A DNA stretch of 64,000 bases from Thiotrichaceae bacterium. GTDB lineage: Bacteria; Pseudomonadota; Gammaproteobacteria; Beggiatoales; Beggiatoaceae. Both the position numbers and the translations under genes were made by a program. The notes under the pieces were generated by a model, which searched no databases, was not told the DNA's origin, and saw only the letters and a program-made list of their open reading frames with translations. The DNA is taken from contig JAABRD010000014.1 in NCBI GenBank assembly GCA_011391085.1, forward strand, positions 1 to 64,000. Reading direction: 5' to 3'. Positions 7,824-45,462 of this stretch are shown here, piece by piece. Positions within the stretch are counted from its first letter, which is position 1. The number at the start of each line of letters is the position of its first letter.

Positions 7824-7895
7824 ACTGGAATGCAATAAGAATGATTGCCCCCTGCGAAGCGTCGCAACGGCGCAATAATTCTTATTGCGCTCCAG
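7824..7895. repeat. Inverted-repeat element with TAAGAAT arms
   Basis: Ends CTGGAATGCAATAAGAAT and ATTCTTATTGCGCTCCAG are inverted, with an inner GCGTCGCAACGGCG core. A near copy lies at 63894-63964. Confidence 0.8.
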
Positions 7896-7965
7896 CAGGG
7901 AGTCGTACAATTTTACAGGAATTTTAAGTACCGAAGCAGAAATTTTACGGTATTTTCAATCGTCG

Positions 7966-8014
7966 CCCTCACCCCCGGCCCTTCTCCCTCTGGGAGAGGG
8001 GCCGGGGGTGAGGG
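7966..8014. repeat. GC-rich hairpin element upstream of the kinase gene
   Basis: CCCTCACCCCCGGCC and GGCCGGGGGTGAGGG are perfect inverted arms. They sit inside a wider inverted pair (GAAGCAGAAATTTTA near 7933 and AAAATTTCTGCTTC near 8035). Related cores occur at 34675-34765 and 45340-45433. Confidence 0.8.
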
Positions 8015-8082
8015 TAAAGGCGTCATTATACCAGAAAATTTCTGCTTCACTACTTACTATATTTCACATTAGGGTCTCTCTT

Positions 8083-11000
8083 ATGTCCAAACCAAATTCA
8101 AACAAAGGTGAATTACTTAAACGACTGACTCAATTATTAAGACGCAGTCTGGAACAAATTCCCGGAGTCGGGATGGTGGTAAAATTAGGCAATGATTGGC
8201 AAGCGGTGTGCGACCAAATGCGTCAAGAACAAGCACACTTGGCCTTGGCCGAACGGGTCGCGCAATTGGAAGAATTGGCCACCTTTACCCCAGTACAAGC
8301 CCGTGAAAAGGCACAAGCGGAAATGACTGAGGCGCGGCAACAGGGTCAGACCATTTCTCGTGAGTTAGAGGAAGCGGTGTTAGAGTTGGCTTCTTCCATT
8401 CCCGCCACCGTCCGTGAACGAACGCAAGCGACGTTGCGGCAAGCCCGTCGGCATGGGACGGCGATGCAAACGGTCTTACCCTTGGGAGAAGGTTTTACGG
8501 AGATGGAACAGAATGAATTTTATCGGTCCTTGTTGCCAGCCCGGCGTTCGCGGTTTCGGGAACATGACCCGGTGCCGCATGGGAATCCGCAATGGCGGTT
8601 GGTGCAGTTGATTGGCGCGGGCGGGTTTGGGGAGGTGTGGGAAGTGCGGCATCAACAATTGGATGACCGGTTTGCGGTGAAGTTTTGTCAAGAGAGTGTC
8701 AGTGCGATGGCGTTGAAACGGGAAGCCGAAGCGTTGTTCAGACTGCGGAAAGATTTGCCGAAGCATCCTAATATTGTGCGCTTGGAGGATTTGCAATTAG
8801 ACCAGGAACCGTATTGGTTGGCCTTTGAGTATGTCCGGGGCGGGACGTTAGAGGCGTTGATGCGGGCCAAAACGTTTACGTGGAATGAGGCACTGGTGTT
8901 GTTTTTGCCGTTGTTGGAAGGGATGAGTGCGGTGCATAGTCAGGGGATTATTCATCGGGACTTAAAGCCCGCGAATATTTTGTTGACGGCGGAGGGGGTG
9001 CCCAAAATTGCCGATTTTGGGATTGGGAAAGTGACGGCGGAACAGGAGGTGAAATTGACCCAAACTCGTCTGTCTCCGTTTACTTCATTGGGTTTTGGGA
9101 CCCCAGGTTGTATCTCGCCCGAACAAGAGGACGGGCAACCGGCGCATCCGGCGGATGATACTTATTCGTTGGCAGTGATATTGTGGCAATTGTTGCATCA
9201 TACCTTGAAACCACCGCGTTATCTGCGGGCGAGTTTGGAGGATTTGGAGATACCTTCAGAGGCCAAATTGTTAATTCTGGAGTGTTTAGAACTGCCGCGG
9301 CAGAAACGTCCACAGTCGGCGGGGGAGTTGTTACAACGGTTACAGCCGTTGGTGCCTGAAGAGGAACAGCAACGGGTGCAAGGGGAGGTGCAGACTTTGC
9401 AACAGGAGTTACAGGAATTGGAGAGTCGTTTGCAAACGGCGGTGTCTCAGAAGGCGGCGGCGCGGCAGCGGGAGTTGGAACAGCAGAAATTGCGTAAGCA
9501 ACAGGAGTTGGCGCAGAGGCAACAGCAGGCTAAGGATTGGTCCCGGCGGGCGGGTTATGAGGAGGCGTTGGTGCAGGATAAGGAGGCCCGTGCGCAGTTA
9601 GAAGCAGCAGCGGCGGGGCGGTTGGCGAAGTTACGTCAGCAAGTGGAGGAGAAACGGCGGGCGGTGCAACAGGTGGAGTCGCATCAATTGCAACCTGCCA
9701 GAGAGGAATTGGTTAGGGTTGAGAAAAGTTTGGCCGAGATTGAGGGTCAATATGTGCAGGAGAAACAGACGCAACAAGGGCAGTTAGAACAGTCGTTACG
9801 GCAAGCCTTGGCAGAGTTGGGCGAGTTTCAGCCCGCGCCACGGGACCGGTTTGAGTTTGAACAGGAATATCAAGACCGCCTGGCACGGGAGAAAGCGGAA
9901 TATGATACGCAACGGACTCGGTTGGTCGCTTTTTGGCAACAAGCGTTACAGGAGATGGAGAAGACGTTAGCCGCGTCTCATCAGCAAACGGTGGCCACAT
10001 TACAGCAACAACAGGCGACTTTACTGGCCTTGCAATTTGAGATTCCACCGGCCCAGTTGTCTTTGCAATTGGTGGATTATGATGTGAATACGCAACAGTT
10101 GCCGATAGTGCTGGTGGCGCGGGGGATTTTGCCGTTGCAAATTATTCAAGTGAATGCTACTTTGTCGATTGCGCGTGACCCGGCCAAAGAGTGTTGGCAA
10201 CATGCGGAGTTGTTATTGCCTTATTTGATATTGAGGCTGGAACAGGGCGGGCAGTTAGCTGTGATAATGGCTGGCTTTGAAACACCTGAAAGTCAGCGTT
10301 ATACTGTCGATGAGGCAACCTTGGTGGTTTTGGAGGATAAGGAAGAAATAGCGCGAGAACAACAAAAACGTCGGGAGGCTGAAGAACAGAAACGTCGGGA
10401 GGCTGAAGAACAGAAACGTGAAGCCGAAGAACGTAAACGTCGGGAGGCCGAAGCCGAGGAAAACCGTAAAGGCCAACTCTTCACCTTTGAAACCGTTCTC
10501 GTGGACCGTCGTGGCCAAATCATCAAACGTGACTCTCGTCAAGCCCGTCAAGTTGCAATCGACTTGGGTAAAGGTGTAAAATTAGAAATGGTGCATATTC
10601 CAGCGGGCACGTTTCTGATGGGGGCTACCCCGAATGAGGCTGGGGCATCTAGCGACGAGTACCCTCAACATCAAGTCACCCTGAAATCTTTCTGCATGGG
10701 CAAATATCCTGTCACGCAGGCGCAATGGCAAGCGCTTATGGATAATAATCCGTCGAGATTTAAAGGCGAAAATCGTCCAGTGGAAAATGTCTCTTGGCAA
10801 GATGCTAAGGCGTTTTGTGACCGCTTGTCACAACGCACGAGTCAGACGTTTCGCTTGCCCAGTGAAGCGGAATGGGAGTATGCTTGTCGGGCTGGAACTA
10901 CGACGCCGTTTTATGTTGGTGAGACGATTACGCCGGACTTGGTTAACTATGATGGTAATCATCCTTATGGCGATGCCCCCAAGGGCAAATATCGTCAAGA

Positions 11001-11340
11001 AACGACTCCAGTGGGTAGTTTTCCTCCCAATGCGTTTGGTTTATACGATATGCACGGTAATGTCTGGGAGTGGTGTGAAGACGTTTGGCATGAGAATTAT
11101 GAGGGTGCGTCGACGGATGGAAGTGCTTGGGGAGTGAAGAAGGTTAAAAAGGAAGGGGGATTCTTGAGTAATTTGTTTGGGAATAGTGAGAAAGAAGAGA
11201 ATCGCCGCCTGCTGCGCGGCGGTTCGTGGGACGATAATGCCGTTTGGTGCCGTGCCGCGTATCGCAGCAAGTACACGCCAGATTCCCGCCACAATCTCAT
11301 TGGGTTGCGTGTCGTTCTGTGTGCTGTGTGGACTCTGTAA
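8083..11340 (+). CDS. Ser/Thr protein kinase with coiled coil and FGE-like variable domain (DGR target)
   Basis: A 1085-residue protein. Residues 1-165 are helical. The kinase domain (about 170-420) is complete: glycine loop IGAGGFGEVWEV, Lys in FAVKF, HRDLKPANIL, DFG. Residues about 425-650 are a long Gln/Glu/Arg-rich coiled coil, with a second charged repeat (RREAEEQK) near 765-800. Residues about 834-1085 are a formylglycine-generating-enzyme-like C-type lectin fold (IPAGTFLMG, PVTQAQWQAL, RLPSEAEWEYACRAG, GNVWEWCED, RLLRGGSW). The catalytic-type GGSxxC cysteine is missing, so a binding role is more likely than sulfatase maturation. The last 43 codons form a variable region. ATG 8083 is chosen because it aligns with the start of the paralogue at 24349-26556; codons upstream are repeat sequence. 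Confidence 0.92.
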   Translation: MSKPNSNKGELLKRLTQLLRRSLEQIPGVGMVVKLGNDWQAVCDQMRQEQAHLALAERVAQLEELATFTPVQAREKAQAEMTEARQQGQTISRELEEAVLELASSIPATVRERTQATLRQARRHGTAMQTVLPLGEGFTEMEQNEFYRSLLPARRSRFREHDPVPHGNPQWRLVQLIGAGGFGEVWEVRHQQLDDRFAVKFCQESVSAMALKREAEALFRLRKDLPKHPNIVRLEDLQLDQEPYWLAFEYVRGGTLEALMRAKTFTWNEALVLFLPLLEGMSAVHSQGIIHRDLKPANILLTAEGVPKIADFGIGKVTAEQEVKLTQTRLSPFTSLGFGTPGCISPEQEDGQPAHPADDTYSLAVILWQLLHHTLKPPRYLRASLEDLEIPSEAKLLILECLELPRQKRPQSAGELLQRLQPLVPEEEQQRVQGEVQTLQQELQELESRLQTAVSQKAAARQRELEQQKLRKQQELAQRQQQAKDWSRRAGYEEALVQDKEARAQLEAAAAGRLAKLRQQVEEKRRAVQQVESHQLQPAREELVRVEKSLAEIEGQYVQEKQTQQGQLEQSLRQALAELGEFQPAPRDRFEFEQEYQDRLAREKAEYDTQRTRLVAFWQQALQEMEKTLAASHQQTVATLQQQQATLLALQFEIPPAQLSLQLVDYDVNTQQLPIVLVARGILPLQIIQVNATLSIARDPAKECWQHAELLLPYLILRLEQGGQLAVIMAGFETPESQRYTVDEATLVVLEDKEEIAREQQKRREAEEQKRREAEEQKREAEERKRREAEAEENRKGQLFTFETVLVDRRGQIIKRDSRQARQVAIDLGKGVKLEMVHIPAGTFLMGATPNEAGASSDEYPQHQVTLKSFCMGKYPVTQAQWQALMDNNPSRFKGENRPVENVSWQDAKAFCDRLSQRTSQTFRLPSEAEWEYACRAGTTTPFYVGETITPDLVNYDGNHPYGDAPKGKYRQETTPVGSFPPNAFGLYDMHGNVWEWCEDVWHENYEGASTDGSAWGVKKVKKEGGFLSNLFGNSEKEENRRLLRGGSWDDNAVWCRAAYRSKYTPDSRHNLIGLRVVLCAVWTL
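11207..11340 (+). other. DGR variable region VR1
   Basis: The 3' end of the kinase/FGE gene. Compared with the copy at 24349-24482, it differs between about 11215 and 11340 only at 11234 (A/G), 11236 (A/C), 11266 (A/C), 11269 (A/C), 11282 (A/G), 11285 (C/A) and 11291 (A/T). Every difference has A in one copy, and the changed codons lie in the surface-loop positions diversified in other FGE-type DGR proteins. VR status is inferred from this pattern; no template repeat was found in the window. Confidence 0.8.
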
Positions 11341-11570
11341 CCCTTTTAGCTATAGACCTCTTGCCCTTTGCGCTGTTGCCTTTTGCGCTGTTGCCCTGTT
11401 AGAAACTGAGAAGGTGTTTGTTTAGGGGGTGTGGGTTTTAAAACGCCGCGAAGCGGCGCCTGGCGCGAAAAATTCAATATACATATAATATATATGTGTA
11501 TTAACTAATTTGGAGGAGTCCAAGACCTGTCTTGGACTCCGATGTGATGCAGTTTTTAGATAAATAATAC
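11341..11570. repeat. 3' tail shared with the second kinase locus, with hairpin
   Basis: Nearly identical, in inverted orientation, to 24121-24348, ending at GATAAATAAT in both. It contains a CTTTTGCGCTGTTGC repeat, a hairpin CGCCGC-GAA-GCGGCG at 11444-11458, an AT-rich palindrome (CATATAATATATATG) and a family F palindrome at about 11515-11540. The GC hairpin could be a terminator or a DGR target-recognition hairpin; neither is shown. No gene is seen. Confidence 0.85.
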
Positions 11571-11616
11571 TCAACTATCAAGTTTTTGGGTTTGCCTCCC
11601 TCCCAGCGGGGGGATT

Positions 11617-11835
11617 GAGGCAATGCCATTAAGTTAAGGAACTTTCTAGGAGTCTGAGGGTTCAGGACTGGCAGTCCTAGTCAATCCCTTAACTTAATGG
11701 CATGGAGGCATAAGCCGTAAGTCCGGTGATACGGTCATTGCGGCTTTAGCCGCTATCCACCAGCGAAAGCCTCAATGCCATTAAGTTAAGGGATTTATCT
11801 CGTTCCCACGCTGGCGCGTGGGAACGAGAAAACGA
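11617..11835. repeat. Family B/A mosaic plus GTTCCCACGC hairpin
   Basis: Three family B ends (near 11627, 11690 and 11777), family A-like fragments, and a hairpin with arms CTCGTTCCCACGC and GCGTGGGAACGAG (about 11802-11831). No gene is seen in the 563 bp between the kinase stop and 11904. Confidence 0.75.
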
Positions 11836-11903
11836 AAAAACTCACGCTTAGGTTTACACGTTCCTGAAATAGTCACTCCTCTACAACTTTTTAAGGAGAA
11901 CAT

Positions 11904-12122
11904 TTGATGATAACAACTCCCTTATTAGAAGAAAAAAACCGCGTTCAAAGAGAACTCGCCCAATCTGTGAACTACGATGTGGACCGCTATTTTGCACACG
12001 TTCATCAGTTGTTCAAGGAGATGCAAGTGCAATATGGTTTTACTCCTCAGTATGCCGATTTACCAGGGGGAACCTTGTCTTCTGGCGAGGCTGAGACTCG
12101 CTTCGGTTTGGTAAATAGATAA
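11904..12122 (+). CDS. Small hypothetical protein
   Basis: Encodes 72 residues starting MMITTPLLEEKNR. A strong AAGGAG motif about 10 nt upstream supports translation. The sequence is hydrophilic and mostly helical, with no signal or membrane segment and no family I recognise. It could be the N-terminal remnant of a longer protein, since an E element follows 38 bp after the stop. It precedes the UPF0175/DUF3368 toxin-antitoxin pair but is separated from it by that element. Confidence 0.5.
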   Translation: MMITTPLLEEKNRVQRELAQSVNYDVDRYFAHVHQLFKEMQVQYGFTPQYADLPGGTLSSGEAETRFGLVNR

Positions 12123-12159
12123 CACCATATTTGAGAATTTACAGAATGGGTTGGATTTT

Positions 12160-12283
12160 ATTCTGTTCATTCCCCCCCAGCCCCCCCGCACGCGGGGGGG
12201 AGTCATCCACGCTGCGGGGGGAGAGTCACCCCCCCGTGTACGGGGGGGCTGGGGGGGTATAAATGAGAAGGAATACTACTATA
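12160..12283. repeat. Family E element (C-run/G-run core)
   Basis: A core of C-runs and G-runs that can form long hairpins ends with AAGGAATACTACTATA. The left end is degenerate. It lies between 11904-12122 and the toxin-antitoxin pair. Confidence 0.8.
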
Positions 12284-12323
12284 TGTCTTGGACTCCAATA
12301 TTTAAAAATCAAGAGAAATCAAT

Positions 12324-12569
12324 ATGAACATCGTTATCCCTGAAGACCTTGTCTATGCCACCCGGCTGACAGAAACTGAATTATTACAAGAATTAGCCGT
12401 GGTGCTTTACCAAAAAGAAAAATTATCCATGGGTCAAGCCAGTAAAATGGCCAAAATGACGCAATTACAATTCCAAGGATTACTAGGCAGTCGTCAAATC
12501 AACGTCCATTATGATGTCCCCGAATTTACACAAGACTTGAAAACCTTGCAAGAGTTGGGACGGATATGA
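12324..12569 (+). CDS. UPF0175 family antitoxin
   Basis: An 81-residue UPF0175 protein (MNIVIPEDLVYATRLTETEL; helix-turn-helix-like LSMGQASKMAKMTQLQFQGL at about 35-54). UPF0175 proteins are usually encoded just upstream of DUF3368 PIN-like toxins and are taken as their antitoxins. Here the stop overlaps the start of the DUF3368 gene by 4 nt (ATGA), as expected for a coupled module. The pair looks intact, unlike most other toxin-antitoxin genes in this window. Confidence 0.88.
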   Translation: MNIVIPEDLVYATRLTETELLQELAVVLYQKEKLSMGQASKMAKMTQLQFQGLLGSRQINVHYDVPEFTQDLKTLQELGRI

Positions 12570-13051
12570 AAGTTGTCAGTAATACCTCACCACTCTTGAA
12601 TCTGGCCACCATTGGGCAATTAAACGTGTTGAGAGACCTCTATGGTCAAGTGATTTTGCCCCCTGCGGTTTACCATGAAATAGTGGTAGCTGGCGCAGGA
12701 CAACCGGGGGCCCAAGAGGTTGAAGCAAGTGATTGGCTTGACGTTCGACCCGTCAGTAACCAGTCCCTAGTCACAGCTTTGCAAGTAGATGTGGACATAG
12801 GCGAAGCCTCTGCGATGGTTCTGGCTTTGGAGTTGAAGGCCGATTTGTTGCTGTTAGATGAACGTAAAGGACGCTTAGTCGCTTCTCGTTTAGGTCTCAA
12901 AATGACAGGGGTGTTAGGAATTTTGATCGAAGCCAAACGTCACGGCCTAATTGCCGCGGTCAAACCCATTTTGGACGCCCTTATCGGGCAAGTTAGTTTT
13001 CGTGTCAGTTCACAGCTATATCAGGAAGTGTTAAAGATGGCTAAGGAATAG
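12566..13051 (+). CDS. DUF3368 PIN-like toxin
   Basis: A 161-residue DUF3368 protein. The PIN-type fold is suggested by the N-terminal VVSNTSPLLNLA (position of the first acidic/Asn residue), GEASAMVLALEL in the middle, and LLLDERKGRLVA at about 98-109. The predicted activity is RNA cleavage countered by the UPF0175 protein upstream. The family is often described as VapC-like; the target is unknown. The frame is complete and the 4-nt overlap indicates co-translation. Confidence 0.88.
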   Translation: MKVVSNTSPLLNLATIGQLNVLRDLYGQVILPPAVYHEIVVAGAGQPGAQEVEASDWLDVRPVSNQSLVTALQVDVDIGEASAMVLALELKADLLLLDERKGRLVASRLGLKMTGVLGILIEAKRHGLIAAVKPILDALIGQVSFRVSSQLYQEVLKMAKE

Positions 13052-13060
13052 GAGTAACGT

Positions 13061-13086
13061 GGAGTCCAAAACCTGTTTTGGACCCC
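13061..13086. repeat. Family F palindrome
   Basis: GGAGTCCAAAACC and GGTTTTGGACCCC arms, one of many copies of this palindrome in the window (for example about 14541, 26884, 45477, 56082). Confidence 0.85.
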
Positions 13087-13124
13087 AGTTAGAAATTTTG
13101 GTGGAGTTGCGTAAATCCTAAAAT

Positions 13125-13841
13125 ATGAAAAGACACGGACATTTGTGGCCAAGTATTATCGACTTTGCCAATTTACTCAAAGCGGCCCGCCAGGCGCAAA
13201 AAGGTAAACGCTATCGAGAGAACGTCTTGCAATTCAACTATCACTTAGAAGAGGAACTGTTACAGTTACAAGCCGAATTAGCTTCTCAAACGTATCGCCC
13301 AGGCCCCTACAAAACGTTTGAAATTGTGGAACCGAAACGACGGATGATTTCGGCAGCCCCTTATCGTGATAGAGTCGTGCATCATGCGTTATGTAACATC
13401 ATCATGCCGATTTTTGAGAGAACATTTATTGCCGATTCGTATGCCAATCGCGTTGGTTTTGGGACGCATCGGGCGTTACGTCGCTTTACCACATTTGCCA
13501 GGTCGAGTCGTTATGTCTTACAATGTGACGAGTGCGTAAATACTTTCCTAGCATTGACCACGCCATTTTGAAAACTCTCCTGCGGCGTAAAATCAAATGC
13601 ACTCAAACTCTTTGGTTAATTGACCTGATTATTGACCATAGCAATCCACAAGAACCTGTGCTAGAGTATTTTGCAGGCGATGATTTGTTGACCCCCCAGT
13701 CAACGTCGCCGCGGTTTGCCCGTTGGCAATTTGACCAGCCAGTTTTTTGCAAATGTCTATCTCAATAGCTTTGACCATTTTATCAAAGAACAATTGAAAA
13801 TTGTCAAATATGTGCGTTATGTGGACGATTTTGCCTTATTT
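13125..13841 (+). pseudogene. DGR-type reverse transcriptase, frameshifted and truncated
   Basis: Three consecutive frames together read as one reverse transcriptase. Fragment 1 (13125-13529) has the N-terminal helices, [19 protein letters not shown] and [19 protein letters not shown]. Fragment 2 (from 13532) has [12 protein letters not shown]. Fragment 3 (from 13701) has [19 protein letters not shown] and the catalytic YVRYVDDF. The LPVGNLTSQ version of motif 4 is typical of DGR enzymes. A 2-nt insertion (GA, 13530-13531) and a 1-nt insertion (T, about 13700) break the frame, and homology stops right after DDFALF at about 13841, so the thumb region is missing. It is almost certainly inactive. 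It lies 1.8 kb downstream of a likely DGR target gene. Confidence 0.88.
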
Positions 13842-13922
13842 GGGATTTGCGGAATCCGTGTCATCTGCGGGAATCTGCGGTTTAGACCGTGTAATTTAGC
13901 TCTAACAACGAGGAAATGAATT

Positions 13923-22464: not shown

Positions 22465-22630
22465 GGTAGTGATGCAATTTGGGTGAAATATCGCACGGTT
22501 TCGCGTCGGTCTTGAACTCTGATTGAGATGATTAAATGAGGACTCTGATAAGGAGGTTTTACTAATCAGAGTTCATCTGAAAATCATTCTAATCAGAGTT
22601 CAGACAGAGAACCCACATTGCATCACTACC
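22465..22630. mobile_element. M2 element joining two broken toxin-antitoxin genes
   Basis: A 166-bp element with ends GGTAGTGATGCAATTTGGG and CCCACATTGCATCACTACC. Inside are an inner pair of inverted TCAGAGTTC repeats. Its right end truncates a vapC copy. No clear target duplication flanks this copy. Confidence 0.85.
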
Positions 22631-22668
22631 AAATAGTCAATCCAAACGGAAGTGTCAACTAGAAACAT
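22631..22668 (-). pseudogene. VapC PIN toxin, 12-codon remnant
   Basis: Encodes only MFLVDTSVWIDY, identical to the start of the fragment at 14128, then runs into M2. Confidence 0.8.
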
Positions 22669-24120: not shown

Positions 24121-24348
24121 ATTATTTATCTAAAAACTGCATCACATCGGAGTCCAAGACAGGTCTTGGACTCCTCCAAATTAGTTAATACACATATATA
24201 TTATATGTATATTGAATTTTTCGCGCCAGGCGCCGCTTCGCGGCGTTTTAAAACCCACACCCCCTAAACAAACACCTTCTCAGTTTCTAACAGGGCAACA
24301 GCGCAAAAGGCAACAGCGCAAAGGGCAAAAGGTCTATAGCTAAAAGGG
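24121..24348. repeat. 3' tail shared with the first kinase locus
   Basis: Inverted near-identical copy of 11341-11570, including the GCGGCG hairpin, the AT-rich palindrome and the family F palindrome. Similarity ends at 24121, next to the PIN pseudogene start. Confidence 0.88.
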
Positions 24349-24482
24349 TTACAGAGTCCACACAGCACACAGAACGACACGCAACCCAATGAGATTGAGG
24401 CGGTAACCTGGCGTGTACTGGCGGCGATACGCGGCACGGCACCAAACGGCATGACCGTCCCACGAACCGCCGCGCAGCAGGC
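24349..24482 (-). other. DGR variable region VR2
   Basis: Partner of VR1 (11207-11340). The two encode DGHAVW/RRQYTPGYRLN versus DDNAVW/RSKYTPDSRHN. All base differences involve A in one copy; the bases between them and the codons after LIGLRV to the stop are identical. Confidence 0.8.
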
Positions 24483-26556
24483 GGTAGCTATTCTCTCCTC
24501 CTGTCTTCCACACACTCCCATCTGTCGGCGCACCCTCATAATTCTCATGCCAAACGTCTTCACACCACTCCCAGACATTACCGTGCATATCGTATAAACC
24601 AAACGCATTGGGAGGAAAACTACCCACTGGAGTCGTTTCTTGACGATATTTACCCTTGGGGGCATCGCCATAAGGATGATTACCATCATAGTTCACCAAG
24701 TCCGGCGTAATCGTCTCACCAAAATAAAAGGGCGTTGTGGTTCCAGCCCGACACGCATATTCCCATTCCGCTTCACTAGGCAACCGAAAGGTTTGACCTG
24801 TGCGTTGTGACAAGCGGTCACAAAACGCCTTAGCATCTTGCCAAGAGACATTTTCCACTGGGCGATTCTCACCTTTGAAAAATGACGAATTGTTACCCAT
24901 AAGCGCTTGCCATTGCGCCTGCGTCACAGGATATTTGCCCATGCAAAAAGATTTCAAGGTCACTTGATGTTGGGGATATTCACTTGATTGCGCCTCAGCT
25001 TCATTCGGGGCGGCCCCCATCAGAAAAGTGCCCGCTGGAATATGCACCATTTCTAATTTTACTCCTTTACCCAAGTCGATAGCAACTTGACGGGCTTGAC
25101 CAGGTTCACGCTTAATCACTTGACCACGACGGTCAACCAGGACAGTTTCAAAGGTGAAGAGTTGGCCATCCGCCGTTGGACTAGAGGCTTTAGCCGGTGC
25201 CGTTGGACTAGAGGCTTTAGCCGGTGCCGTTGGACTAGAGGCTTTAGCCGGTGCCGTTGGACTAGAGGCTTCAGCCGGTGACCTCCCCCCCACCGCCTGT
25301 AACCGTTTCAACAACTCCCCCGCATCCTGCGGCCGTTTCTTCCGTGGCCGTAAACCATCCAAAACTAACCGTTTCGCCTCCTCTGGAATATCCAAGTCCT
25401 CCAAACTATCCTGTACATAAGTCATCGGTAGCGGTTTCAACGTATAACTCAACATCTGCCACAGTATCACCGCCAACGAATACACATCATCAGCAGGATG
25501 CGCGGGTTGCCCGTCCATTTGTTCGGGTGACGCATACCCAAAACTCCCCGCCCCCATTAACGTAGGGGCCAACCGAGTGTGCCGAATTTCCTGTTCCACC
25601 ATCACTTTCCCAATCCCAAAATCTGCAATCTTAGGCCGTCCCTCGTCAGTCAACAAAATATTAGCTGGTTTCAAATCCCGATGCACAATCCCCACTTGAT
25701 GCACCGCACTCATCCCTTGCACGATGGGCATAAATAATTCCAATGCCTCCTCCCAACTAAACTGCTTGGCCCGCATCAAGGCTTCCAACGTGCCCCCATT
25801 GACATACTCAAAAGCCAACCAATAGGGTTCCTCGTCTAACGACAAATCCTCTAAACTGACAATATGCGGATGTTTGGGCAACTCCTCATGCAATTTCGAC
25901 AGCGCCTTCGCTTCTTGTTTCAAAACTTTGGCACTGTCACCATCTTGACAAAACTTCACAGCATGACGATCTTTCAATGGCTGATGTTGCACCTCCCACA
26001 CTTCCCCAAACCCACCGGCCCCAATCAATTGCGTCAACCGCCACCGCGGATTCGCATTCGGCACCGATTCCCCTTCCCGAAACCGTGGCCGCCGGGCAGG
26101 TAACAAGGACCGATAAAACTCATTCTGTTCCATCTCGGTAAAACCTTCGCCCAATGGTAAGACCGTTTGCATTGCCGTCCCATGCCGACGGGCTTGCCGC
26201 AACGTCGCTTGCGTTCGTTCACGGACGGTGGCGGGAATGGAAGAAGCCAACTCTAACACCGCTTCCTCTAACTCACGAGAAATGGTCTGACCCTGTTGCC
26301 GCGCCTCAGTCACTACCACTTGTGCATCTTCACGGGCTTGTGCTGGGGTCGAGGTTGCCACTTTTTCCAATTGCGCAATCCGTTCGACCAATTCCAGATG
26401 CGCTTGTTCCAAACGAATTTGGCCACACACCGCTTGCCAATCATTGCCTAATTTTACCACGGCCCCGGCCACGGGGATTTGTTCCAAAGTGCGTATTAAT
26501 AAGTAGGTAAGTCGTTTAAATAAGTTACCTTTGTTTGAATTGTTAGGTTGTGCCAT
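24349..26556 (-). CDS. Ser/Thr protein kinase with FGE-like variable domain (DGR target)
   Basis: A 735-residue paralogue of 8083-11340. The helical N-terminus 1-165 is strongly conserved (GQTISRELEEAVLELASSIP). The kinase domain at about 170-420 is complete (GAGGFGEVWEV, AVKF, HRDLKPANIL, DFG). The long coiled coil of the paralogue is absent. A linker at about 424-463 is made of four 9-residue units (PAKASSPTA) translated from family A repeat arms. The FGE-like lectin-fold domain is about 499-735 with RLLRGGSW near the end. As in the paralogue, the catalytic GGSxxC cysteine is missing. Start ATG 26556 aligns with the paralogue; upstream codons are unrelated. Probable role: intracellular kinase with a diversified ligand-binding end; ligand unknown. 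Confidence 0.92.
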   Translation of the reverse strand: MAQPNNSNKGNLFKRLTYLLIRTLEQIPVAGAVVKLGNDWQAVCGQIRLEQAHLELVERIAQLEKVATSTPAQAREDAQVVVTEARQQGQTISRELEEAVLELASSIPATVRERTQATLRQARRHGTAMQTVLPLGEGFTEMEQNEFYRSLLPARRPRFREGESVPNANPRWRLTQLIGAGGFGEVWEVQHQPLKDRHAVKFCQDGDSAKVLKQEAKALSKLHEELPKHPHIVSLEDLSLDEEPYWLAFEYVNGGTLEALMRAKQFSWEEALELFMPIVQGMSAVHQVGIVHRDLKPANILLTDEGRPKIADFGIGKVMVEQEIRHTRLAPTLMGAGSFGYASPEQMDGQPAHPADDVYSLAVILWQMLSYTLKPLPMTYVQDSLEDLDIPEEAKRLVLDGLRPRKKRPQDAGELLKRLQAVGGRSPAEASSPTAPAKASSPTAPAKASSPTAPAKASSPTADGQLFTFETVLVDRRGQVIKREPGQARQVAIDLGKGVKLEMVHIPAGTFLMGAAPNEAEAQSSEYPQHQVTLKSFCMGKYPVTQAQWQALMGNNSSFFKGENRPVENVSWQDAKAFCDRLSQRTGQTFRLPSEAEWEYACRAGTTTPFYFGETITPDLVNYDGNHPYGDAPKGKYRQETTPVGSFPPNAFGLYDMHGNVWEWCEDVWHENYEGAPTDGSVWKTGGENSYRLLRGGSWDGHAVWCRAAYRRQYTPGYRLNLIGLRVVLCAVWTL
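25172..25279 (-). repeat. Four 27-bp family A arms inside the kinase coding sequence
   Basis: Four perfect-length units (25172, 25199, 25226, 25253) carrying GGACTAGAGGCTTTAGCC, read in frame as PAKASSPTA. The same sequence is intergenic everywhere else in the window. Length 27 keeps the frame. Confidence 0.92.
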
Positions 26557-26923
26557 AAGAAAAACCCTATATATGAAAATAAACCGTGCGAAAATAATCC
26601 ATAATAATTCGTCCCAGAAGTCCAAAGCGTAGCTTTGTGAAAAATATTATAGAAAAATATATAATAATATTCATTTATTCTTGTACCCCCCCCAGCCCCC
26701 CCCGTACACGGGGGGGAGTGACCCCCCCTGCGTGCGGAGGGGTACAAAAAGGAGTGACCCCCCTGCGTGCGGGGGGTACAAAAAGGAATGAATATTACTA
26801 TATATGTACTGGACAACGAACAATGAATAATGGATAATAGAAAATGACAAAACTTTAGGTGGACTAGAGGCTTTAAAATAACGGAGTCCAAAACCTGGAG
26901 TCCAAAACCTGTTTTGGACTCCG
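26557..26923. repeat. Repeat mosaic upstream of the second kinase gene
   Basis: A family G half (about 26617-26640), a family E element (26658-26803, with ends TATAATAATATTC and GAATATTACTATA), a family A fragment (about 26857-26875) and a family F palindrome (about 26884-26922). No gene is seen. Confidence 0.75.
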
Positions 26924-26940
26924 ACTGTCTTTCATTCTTC

Positions 26941-27105
26941 GGTAGTGATGCAATGTGGGTGAAAGGTCTGAACTATGATTAGAATGATTTTCAGATGGAC
27001 TATGATTGGTCAAGCCTCCTTTCATAGCCCTCATTTAATCATATCAATCACAGTTCAAGACCTAAGAGAAACCGCACGATATTTCACCCAGATGGCATCA
27101 CTACC
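26941..27105. mobile_element. Complete M2 element with 8-bp target duplication
   Basis: A 165-bp element with ends GGTAGTGATGCAATGTGGG and GATGGCATCACTACC. CATTCTTC occurs directly on both sides (26933-26940 and 27106-27113). It lies upstream of hpt and has no coding capacity, so movement would need a transposase supplied elsewhere. Confidence 0.92.
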
Positions 27106-28438: not shown

Positions 28439-28749
28439 GGTAGTGATGCAATCTGGGTGAAATATCGGGTAGTGTTGCAAAGGTAATGGTTGTGGGTTTT
28501 GGAGTACGGAATTTATTCCGTTTCCAGCGGAATAAATTCCGTACTCCAGCGGAATAAATTCCGTACTCCAAAACCGCTATACCATTACTTATACAACACT
28601 ACCAAATATCGTGCAGTTTCGCGTCGGTCTTGAACTCTGATTGAGAGGATTAAATGAGGGCTCTGAAAGGGAGGCTCTGACTAATCAGAGTCCATCTGAA
28701 AATCATTCTAATCAGAGTTCAGACAGTGAACCTACATTGCCTCACTACC
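28439..28749. mobile_element. M2 element interrupted by M1
   Basis: Ends GGTAGTGATGCAATCTGGG and CCTACATTGCCTCACTACC. The interior matches the M2 copy at 22465-22630 (GTTTCGCGTCGGTCTTGAAC, TCAGAGTTC pairs), except that an M1 element sits at 28468-28603. Confidence 0.92.
28468..28603. mobile_element. M1 element nested in M2, with 8-bp target duplication
   Basis: A 136-bp element with ends GGTAGTGTTGCAAAGGTAA and TTACTTATACAACACTACC and family D palindromes inside. AAATATCG is present on both sides. The M2 copy at 22465 has a single AAATATCG at the same place and so serves as the empty site. Confidence 0.95.
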
Positions 28750-34587: not shown

Positions 34588-34879
34588 ATGATTACTTTTG
34601 CAACACTACCGAGATTGAGTCAAACTAGATTGAAATTCGGTAGTGATGCAATGTGGGTGACATGCTTACCCTCACCCCCGGCCCCTCTCCCAGAGGGAGA
34701 GGGGAGTATGGCGGAACCGGTGGTTTTCTCCCCGCACCCTCTGGGAGAGGGGCCGGGGGTGAGGGCAACTCCCTGAAATTCTATACACTCCCCAAACAAA
34801 TGTCAAATGTCTTTACCTTGCGGGCATGGACTATAAAGCCCAAGACGTTCGCTACCGCATTATTCCATAGTGAGTAGCC
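34588..34879. repeat. M1 end, partial M2 and GC-rich hairpins
   Basis: An M1 end (TTTTGCAACACTACC) finishes at about 34609. An M2 left end (GGTAGTGATGCAATGTGGG) begins at 34639 and runs into CCCTCACCCCCGGCC arms repeated to 34765, with no M2 right end visible. About 110 bp of plain sequence follow. Confidence 0.75.
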
Positions 34880-44871: not shown

Positions 44872-45303
44872 ATGGACCAGCTTATCGAATTTATAGGTAA
44901 TCACCCTAACCTTGCAATGGCTTTTGTCGTGGTCTCCATACTCTTAATTTGGAGTTTTGTGGGTGATTCTCTCCAAGGGCTGAATAACCTAGCCCCCCAG
45001 GAGGCGACTCTATTGATGAATCATGAAGATGCCATTGTGGTAGATGTACGCGAAGACAGTGAATATGTCCAAGGACATATTCTAAACGCTATCCACCTGC
45101 CCTCAAATACCCTTCTGGATAGAATTGGACGACTCGAAAAATATCGAAACCGCCCAATAATTATCAGTTGCATGACAGGTAGCCGTTCCGCCCACGCATG
45201 TAGCTTATTGAAAAAGAAAGGTTTTGAAAAAGTTCACAATCTCAAGGGTGGCCTTATGGCTTGGCAAAATGCCAATTTACCGTTGGCCAAAGGGAAGGAT
45301 TAA
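44872..45303 (+). CDS. Membrane-anchored rhodanese (YibN-like)
   Basis: A 143-residue sulfurtransferase. An N-terminal helix at about 13-32 anchors it; the rhodanese domain has VVDVREDSEYVQGHI and the active-site loop with Cys100 in ISCMTGSRSAHA. It would carry sulfane sulfur as a cysteine persulfide. YibN normally heads the series yibN-grxC-secB-gpsA; here grxC is absent and an M2 element occupies the gap, while the upstream arsR-DUF2892 genes link it to sulfur control. Confidence 0.9.
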   Translation: MDQLIEFIGNHPNLAMAFVVVSILLIWSFVGDSLQGLNNLAPQEATLLMNHEDAIVVDVREDSEYVQGHILNAIHLPSNTLLDRIGRLEKYRNRPIIISCMTGSRSAHACSLLKKKGFEKVHNLKGGLMAWQNANLPLAKGKD

Positions 45304-45462
45304 GGTAGTGATGCAATGTGGGTGATCTTCATGTTACCCTCACCCCCGGCCCCTCTCCCAGAGGGAGAAGGGAGAAAACCACGGATTCCGCCGTTCCCCC
45401 CACGCCTACGGGCGTGGGGCCGGGGGTGAGGGTAAACATATCACCCACATTGCATCACTACC
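45304..45462. mobile_element. M2 element between the rhodanese gene and secB
   Basis: Ends GGTAGTGATGCAATGTGGG and CCCACATTGCATCACTACC, with a CCCTCACCCCCGGCC hairpin core. Flanks AGGATTAA (45296-45303, including the rhodanese stop) and ATGATTAA (45463-45470) match at 7 of 8 bases, an aged target duplication. Confidence 0.88.

Follow-up and report, generated by a model that had tools for sequence, protein, structure and literature searches.

Two genes within the 64,000-nucleotide stretch of DNA analysed here (hereafter, the window) end in almost identical sequences, which raises the question of whether the few bases that distinguish these ends were written by a diversity-generating retroelement (DGR), an error-prone copying system, and, if so, by which one. 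The variable region VR1 (11207–11340, plus strand) forms the 3′ end of target gene 1, and VR2 (24349–24482, minus strand) forms that of target gene 2; a BLAST search of the window with VR1 aligned the two over 134 bp with seven mismatches and no gaps. The original prediction had listed seven differences between them (11234 A/G, 11236 A/C, 11266 A/C, 11269 A/C, 11282 A/G, 11285 C/A, and 11291 A/T), and this list proved exact, with no other difference over the 134 bp. One base of every differing pair is A, as had also been stated.

When the genome to which the window belongs (5.77 Mb, 140 contigs, 99.92% complete, 0.1% contamination) was searched with VR1, six matches were obtained: VR1, VR2, C50:87504–87637, C67:1212–1345, C44:45456–45589, and C67:3358–3487. 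The last of these is the template repeat (TR) that had been predicted to exist outside the FGE genes near a DGR reverse transcriptase (RT): it starts 19 bp after the RT stop codon and carries A at all seven positions. The RT gene (2160–3338 of C67, locus L011; RVT_1, 77.4 bits) and the Avd gene upstream of it (C67 1801–2163; bAvd PF22296, 71.1 bits against a cut-off of 40) both have open frames, and an FGE gene at C67 194–1345 ends in the cis VR (1212–1345). This order of target, Avd, RT, and template is the usual DGR cassette. Avd gave a single match in the whole genome, and RVT_1 matched at four places, with one intact DGR RT. The DGR VRs of the genome number five: VR1, VR2, one beside the template on C67, and two on other contigs (C50 and C44). 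By these searches, the genome has one template, one intact DGR RT, and one Avd, which supports the earlier proposal that both window genes are targets of one DGR. Judged from the sequences, VR1 and VR2 are almost certainly remote variable regions originating from the chromosomal DGR on C67, and it is most likely that this DGR writes both window genes in trans.

The differences between the VRs and the template fall on adenines. The first 105 template bases include 24 A, and over this core (VR1, 11207–11311, plus strand; VR2, 24378–24482, minus strand) the differences at template A were 8/8 for VR1 and 13/13 for VR2. The original prediction had named further copies differing at non-A positions as an observation that would speak against it, and in the three additional VRs the differences at A were 13/14 (C67), 16/16 (C50), and 14/14 (C44). 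When the five VRs were pooled, 64/65 differences lay at template adenines, and 22 of the 23 sites that varied in any of them were A. The hypergeometric probability of A-only differences was 2.6e−6 for VR1 and 1.8e−10 for VR2, with the cut at template base 105 having been chosen after the alignment had been seen. The sole non-adenine change in the core, template G82C, occurs in the cis VR (L011 1293) and replaces Arg with Pro. Among the 24 template adenines, 23 are at codon positions 1 or 2, and 22 varied in at least one home VR; positions 74 and 88 were unvaried in all five. In the related genome carrying locus L015 (described below), position 74 varied in the VR and position 88 was unvaried there too.

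Beyond the core, template positions 106–124 showed no difference in any of the five home VRs, and T125G was common to all five and to the L015 VR. Positions 125 and 129–134 differ at non-A bases; this is where the constant 3′ element is located and where TR/VR homology ends, from about template position 129. The IMH-like constant 3′ end corresponds to 11312–11334 (plus strand) in VR1, with one VR/TR difference, G/T, at template 125 (VR1 11331), and, by alignment to the template, to 24355–24377 (minus strand) in VR2.

For comparison with other DGRs, the best 80 of 92 relatives were kept, and a script found TR/VR pairs in 57 of these related loci. The corresponding adenine figure of 1162/1234 leans upward because, for a pair to be accepted by the script, no fewer than 75% of the mismatches had to be at A. 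Among the best 80 of the 92 relatives, the RT nearest to that of C67 was L015, from the record Thiomargarita sp. SulCav_PC08, at 96% identity. In a phylogenetic tree, from which the short L093 and L094 RTs were left out, the C67 RT was grouped, with good support, with two RTs whose records bear the name Thiomargarita and with no cyanobacterial RT.

The similarity between the home and L015 cassettes stops at C67 3645, and the downstream neighbours (L011 3645–4900) differ, indicating that the C67 cassette or its surroundings have moved. Several further features of the C67 locus were observed. About 115 bp between Avd and RT (L011 2142–2256) are absent from L015, and parts of this insert recur in the window, for example at 34636–34704 and 45303–45462. 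The cis target is bracketed by inverted copies of a repeat of approximately 167 bp (L011 123–290 and 1538–1703), with further copies in the window at 22465–22634, 26938–27105, and 28604–28749.

The comparison of the VRs with the sequences upstream of them distinguishes rewriting from conservation. The core (34 codons) contains 78 non-adenine sites, of which 0 or 1 differ between any two of the five VRs, whereas upstream of the VR (564–657 bases compared) the five genes differ at 11–55% of bases and 20–63% of third positions. Between genes 1 and 2, 64/609 bases of the upstream domain differ and 41 of these are third positions, matching the earlier remark that these parts differ in the ordinary third-base way. 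Because the non-adenine core is unchanged and the upstream domain has diverged, the VR has been rewritten and not merely conserved. The templates of L015 and the home genome differ at four positions (44, 92, 93, and 98), and the L015 cis VR, the one L015 VR compared, carries the base of its own template at 4/4 of these sites. At 44, 92, and 98, none of which is an adenine in the home template, each of the five home VRs carries the home base; the home template has an adenine at position 93, where the C44 VR has G. With L015 for comparison, the template-to-VR flow can be followed without reads. The home template was also matched in 5 of 38 other genomes (70–78% identical, or in one case 21 identical bases) and in two of six genomes reached by locus (L098 and L109 being the same sequence, and one genome being in both sets); these matches were inspected but not used as evidence.

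These data bear on a second explanation, which shares the DGR origin: the VRs would be past DGR products, and the window copies would since have been spread or fixed as FGE genes were duplicated and underwent gene conversion with one another, trans homing being no longer active today. The flanks of VR1 and VR2 past the stop codon, which over 234 bases show 4 differences, are a sign of recent duplication or conversion, but the two VRs differ at seven sites inside a block with this almost identical 3′ flank. The C50 target is 48–55% different upstream from the other four and yet has 0/78 non-adenine core differences from VR1, VR2, and C44. Furthermore, where the L015 template has changed, the home VRs keep to that of the home genome, and the RT and Avd frames are open. 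We consider this explanation unlikely; some VR states could have been passed among targets by gene conversion.

A third explanation concerns the element itself. The window contains the remnant of a different DGR RT (13122–13844, plus strand), which is open at first, loses its frame with stops, returns to frame, and is cut off after YVDD. VR1 is followed by this remnant at a distance of 1.8 kb, in the usual order of target and then RT, and VR1 and VR2 might accordingly have been written by a DGR formerly beside VR1 instead of by the C67 element. The remnant is 61% identical to the C67 RT (152/251 columns, broken middle included), and over its first 136 residues the identity is 76% to the C67 RT and about 80% to the best cyanobacterial RTs. 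In the tree, it was placed apart from the C67 RT, with two Thiotrichaceae RTs (SH-aLRT 85, below the mark for good support), so that it is not a sister of the C67 RT, its own place being weakly supported; a DGR of another lineage therefore seems to have died here. Neither a template nor an Avd remnant was found in the window when BLAST searches were run with the VR on the genome, with the cassette on the window, and with Avd on 11341–13130 (best E 1.9). Within the first 105 bases, VR1 has no difference from the C67 template except at adenines, and when 58 templates (57 related loci and home) were compared, the best match of VR1 was the home template (195 bits), followed by L015 (173) and then by a score of 49. 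Authorship by a former local DGR is thus very improbable. In the absence of any retroelement, duplicated FGE genes might have diverged at their loop residues under ordinary diversifying selection. This reading would fit the location of the variable codons in the C-terminal part of a lectin-like fold but is scarcely credible, given that non-adenine core sites, silent ones included, are unchanged while upstream third positions differ by 20–63%, and that a template with A at the variable sites adjoins an RT.

ORFs at about 12328–13051, between VR1 and the remnant, may be a toxin–antitoxin pair. The two other RT matches in the genome are not read here as second DGRs. The RVT_1 match of L014 is a broken RT with an HNH-like end, which we read as a group II intron RT, and L113 2357–6001 is an open-ended 1215-residue ORF that carries InlB-like repeats alongside an RT domain, the two apparently joined through inserted repeats.

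The targets of the C67 DGR differ in make-up: two kinases, one long FGE protein, and two short FGE proteins. Target gene 1 (7885–11340, plus strand, by ORF and Pfam; the longest ORF from a TTG, so that the start is presumptive) encodes a Ser/Thr protein kinase with a C-terminal FGE-sulfatase/C-type-lectin domain, with Pfam matches to Pkinase (126.6 bits, residues 239–476, about 8599–9312) and FGE-sulfatase (193.7 bits, residues 901–1144, about 10585–11316). Target gene 2 (24349–26625, minus strand, from the TTG start of the longest ORF) likewise encodes a Ser/Thr protein kinase with a C-terminal FGE-sulfatase domain (Pkinase, 131.8 bits; FGE-sulfatase, 206.7 bits). Directly before the VR, at 11124–11206, gene 1 is 51 bases (17 codons) longer than gene 2, and this stretch is otherwise poorly alike in the two genes, being flanked by well-conserved parts. 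Many generic PADLOC kinase models matched the two kinases (the best, mad6, at 192 and 189 bits), and these matches were taken as no evidence that the kinases are defence genes. The C44 target has 829 residues with FGE as its sole Pfam domain, and the ORF fragment upstream of it had no Pfam match; a vWA/MoxR reading of this locus is therefore ours alone.

The C50 target (VR at C50:87504–87637, equivalent to L111 4005–4138) is an FGE protein of 420 residues up to an in-frame TAG inside the VR (L111 4067). The TAG falls at a template AAG codon (TR position 63), after which the frame is open for 22 codons to the usual end. It may be a DGR-made and in principle reversible knock-out or an artefact of the consensus. 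At the related loci, a stop occurred in 0/70 VRs with a clear frame, eight VRs that did not have one being left out of this count; 12 have a template codon able to become a stop by an A change.

The AlphaFold model of the gene 1 domain had a mean pLDDT of 91.9, and its best structural matches were PvdO (Z 32.9), TvpA (2y3c, Treponema denticola variable protein 1; Z 31.8 over 226 residues, rmsd 1.8), and FGEs, with weaker matches to TaqVP (5vf4, Z 15.1) and Mtd (1yu3, Z 14.2). An alignment of the gene 2 domain with the human formylglycine-generating enzyme (FGE) placed Ala opposite one of that enzyme's two C-terminal cysteines, which we take to be the catalytic ones of the active site. Because rewriting affects the C-terminal end of an FGE/C-type-lectin domain that is joined to a Ser/Thr kinase, the DGR would likely provide the kinase with a ligand- or partner-sensing surface that varies between cells.

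The targets also share what follows them. After gene 1, the stop codon and a 3′ non-coding tail extend over 11338–11443 (plus strand) up to a GC hairpin, and within this genome matches to the tail at E ≤ 0.001 occurred only after the five VR genes. The hairpin, CGCCGC-GAA-GCGGCG, is located at 11444–11458 (plus strand) after VR1 and at 24231–24245 (minus strand) after VR2, in both cases 109 bp past the end of the TR/VR homology. The non-coding tail past the stop codon and the hairpin are found after each of the five VR genes of the home genome and after the cis gene of L015, with the hairpin 97–109 bp past the homology end in the home genome (97–111 bp including L015). The loops are GAA in VR1, VR2, C67, and L015, TTT in C44, and TTTA in C50, and the stems are 6–8 bp long when G–T pairs are allowed, with paired changes between genes. 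No hairpin was present within 420 bases of the template start in either the home or the L015 template. When the C44 tail was compared with the home genome, it gave five matches, all VR genes; among the 17 FGE loci fetched, the tail was matched at five, again all VR genes, and at none of the others. The start of the C50 tail is identical to the C44 tail at 43/45 positions, and the coding domains of these genes differ by 51%.

On these comparisons, the GC hairpin is likely to act as a homing (target-recognition) hairpin. We tentatively suggest, giving the idea somewhat less than an even chance, that the 3′ tail is a portable target address, such that an FGE paralog that gained a VR and a tail with its minihairpin would become a target of the one template, which would explain why five unlike proteins share the tail. 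The tail and hairpin would in that case amount to a concrete rule, open to testing, for the set of genes within reach of a chromosomal DGR.

Hairpins were also sought in the related DGRs, where 10 of 88 pairs were dropped (fewer than seven mismatches or a template shorter than 81 bases), so that 78 in 55 loci remained; because these loci are related to one another, the counts are not independent. A C-G-closed GC hairpin with a 3–4 nt loop followed 40/78 VRs (33/55 loci) and 1/55 TRs, with 38/78 VRs having none, and the same rule gave 54 hairpins in 3900 shuffled flanks; this rule was fixed after the outcome of another was known. That other rule, with loops of 3–6 and 220 bases, found a hairpin in 19/78 VR flanks, 3/55 TR flanks, and 0.9% of shuffles. 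Seventeen of the 40 loops were GNA (12 GAA, 4 GCA, and 1 GTA), the loop size being partly by construction because only C-G-closed loops of 3–4 bases were allowed. The shape of the hairpin alone is not specific in the home genome, since the loose pattern CGNCGCNNNGCGNNG yields 26 matches compared with 24 for its backwards control. The GAA form had three exact matches in the home genome, all at VRs, and seven matches with one mismatch, none at a listed VR, compared with two for the control.

Taken together, trans writing by the C67 DGR would proceed as follows. The template RNA would be copied by the RT with Avd, the adenines being copied at random, and the cDNA would then replace the 3′ end of the target over the stretch bounded by the constant 3′ element and the 5′ limit of the homology. 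The sequences suggest that this action would extend in trans to four remote genes, with the hairpin tail probably serving as the target signal.

Several parts of this system are known from other bacteria. Two earlier reports, as far as their accessible text goes, already cover kinase–CLec targets and trans action in themselves (PMC7517822 and PMC10907252). The first (Vallota-Eastman et al. 2020, PMC7517822) describes, in the parts available, cyanobacterial DGRs with Ser/Thr kinase–CLec variable proteins and remote targets. These resemble the present system in the C-terminal CLec domain on an N-terminal kinase and in having, as remote targets, the 3′ ends of CLec genes. The RT is in the same broad group, and most near RTs of the C67 RT, among the best 80 of 92, are cyanobacterial. 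A varying ligand- or partner-sensing surface has been proposed for these relatives, according to the same portions of that paper. In contrast, the present host is probably a Thiotrichaceae sulfur bacterium, with an RT grouping with Thiomargarita records, and the targets share a 3′ tail and hairpin, whereas the available sections of PMC7517822 suggest cruciforms merely as a possibility. The purple sulfur gammaproteobacterium Thiohalocapsa PB-PSB1 (Dore et al. 2024, PMC10907252), as described in the sections available, has nine DGR loci with population read data, target domains including kinase, vWA, and FGE (at DGR 6), and loci that have lost their RT; the present genome differs in having one intact DGR and one template for five genes, known from the assembly alone. 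Active DGRs in salt-marsh sulfur bacteria are also reported in the accessible part of PMC10686091.

For the vWA-MoxR/VMAP ternary conflict systems (Kaur et al. 2020, PMC7159879), the portions available link FGE-type (FGS) lectin-fold domains to DGRs in multicellular bacteria and name Beggiatoa as a host of such conflict systems; the window targets differ in being kinases, and the C44 target has FGE alone by Pfam. Treponema denticola variable protein 1 (2y3c) shares the FGE-like C-type-lectin fold of a DGR target and is the best DGR structural match; it belongs to another host and DGR, and the matched chain has no kinase. In the excerpts available of PMC10907252, PMC7159879, and PMC4853749, we found no description of the present system, and the word retroelement is absent from those of the Ca. 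T. nelsonii genome paper (PMC4853749); we do not claim absence from print, as few subscription papers were covered.

The hairpin has its closest precedent in the Bordetella phage BPP-1 DGR (Guo et al. 2011, PMC3240598), in which, according to the text available, a GC hairpin follows the target VR and is absent after the template. The same text gives phage hairpins of the BPP-1 type as having 7–10 bp stems and 4-nt GRNA loops located 4–34 bp after the VR, whereas those described here have loops of GAA, GAA, GAA, TTT, and TTTA at 97–109 bp. As Guo et al. mention there, as unpublished, hairpins in most chromosomal DGRs, a hairpin is to be expected here, and its loop and distance are what differ. 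The locus is therefore a clear new case of a known DGR system, in which one template is tied to five genes of unlike make-up and the shared downstream tag on the targets deserves a test.
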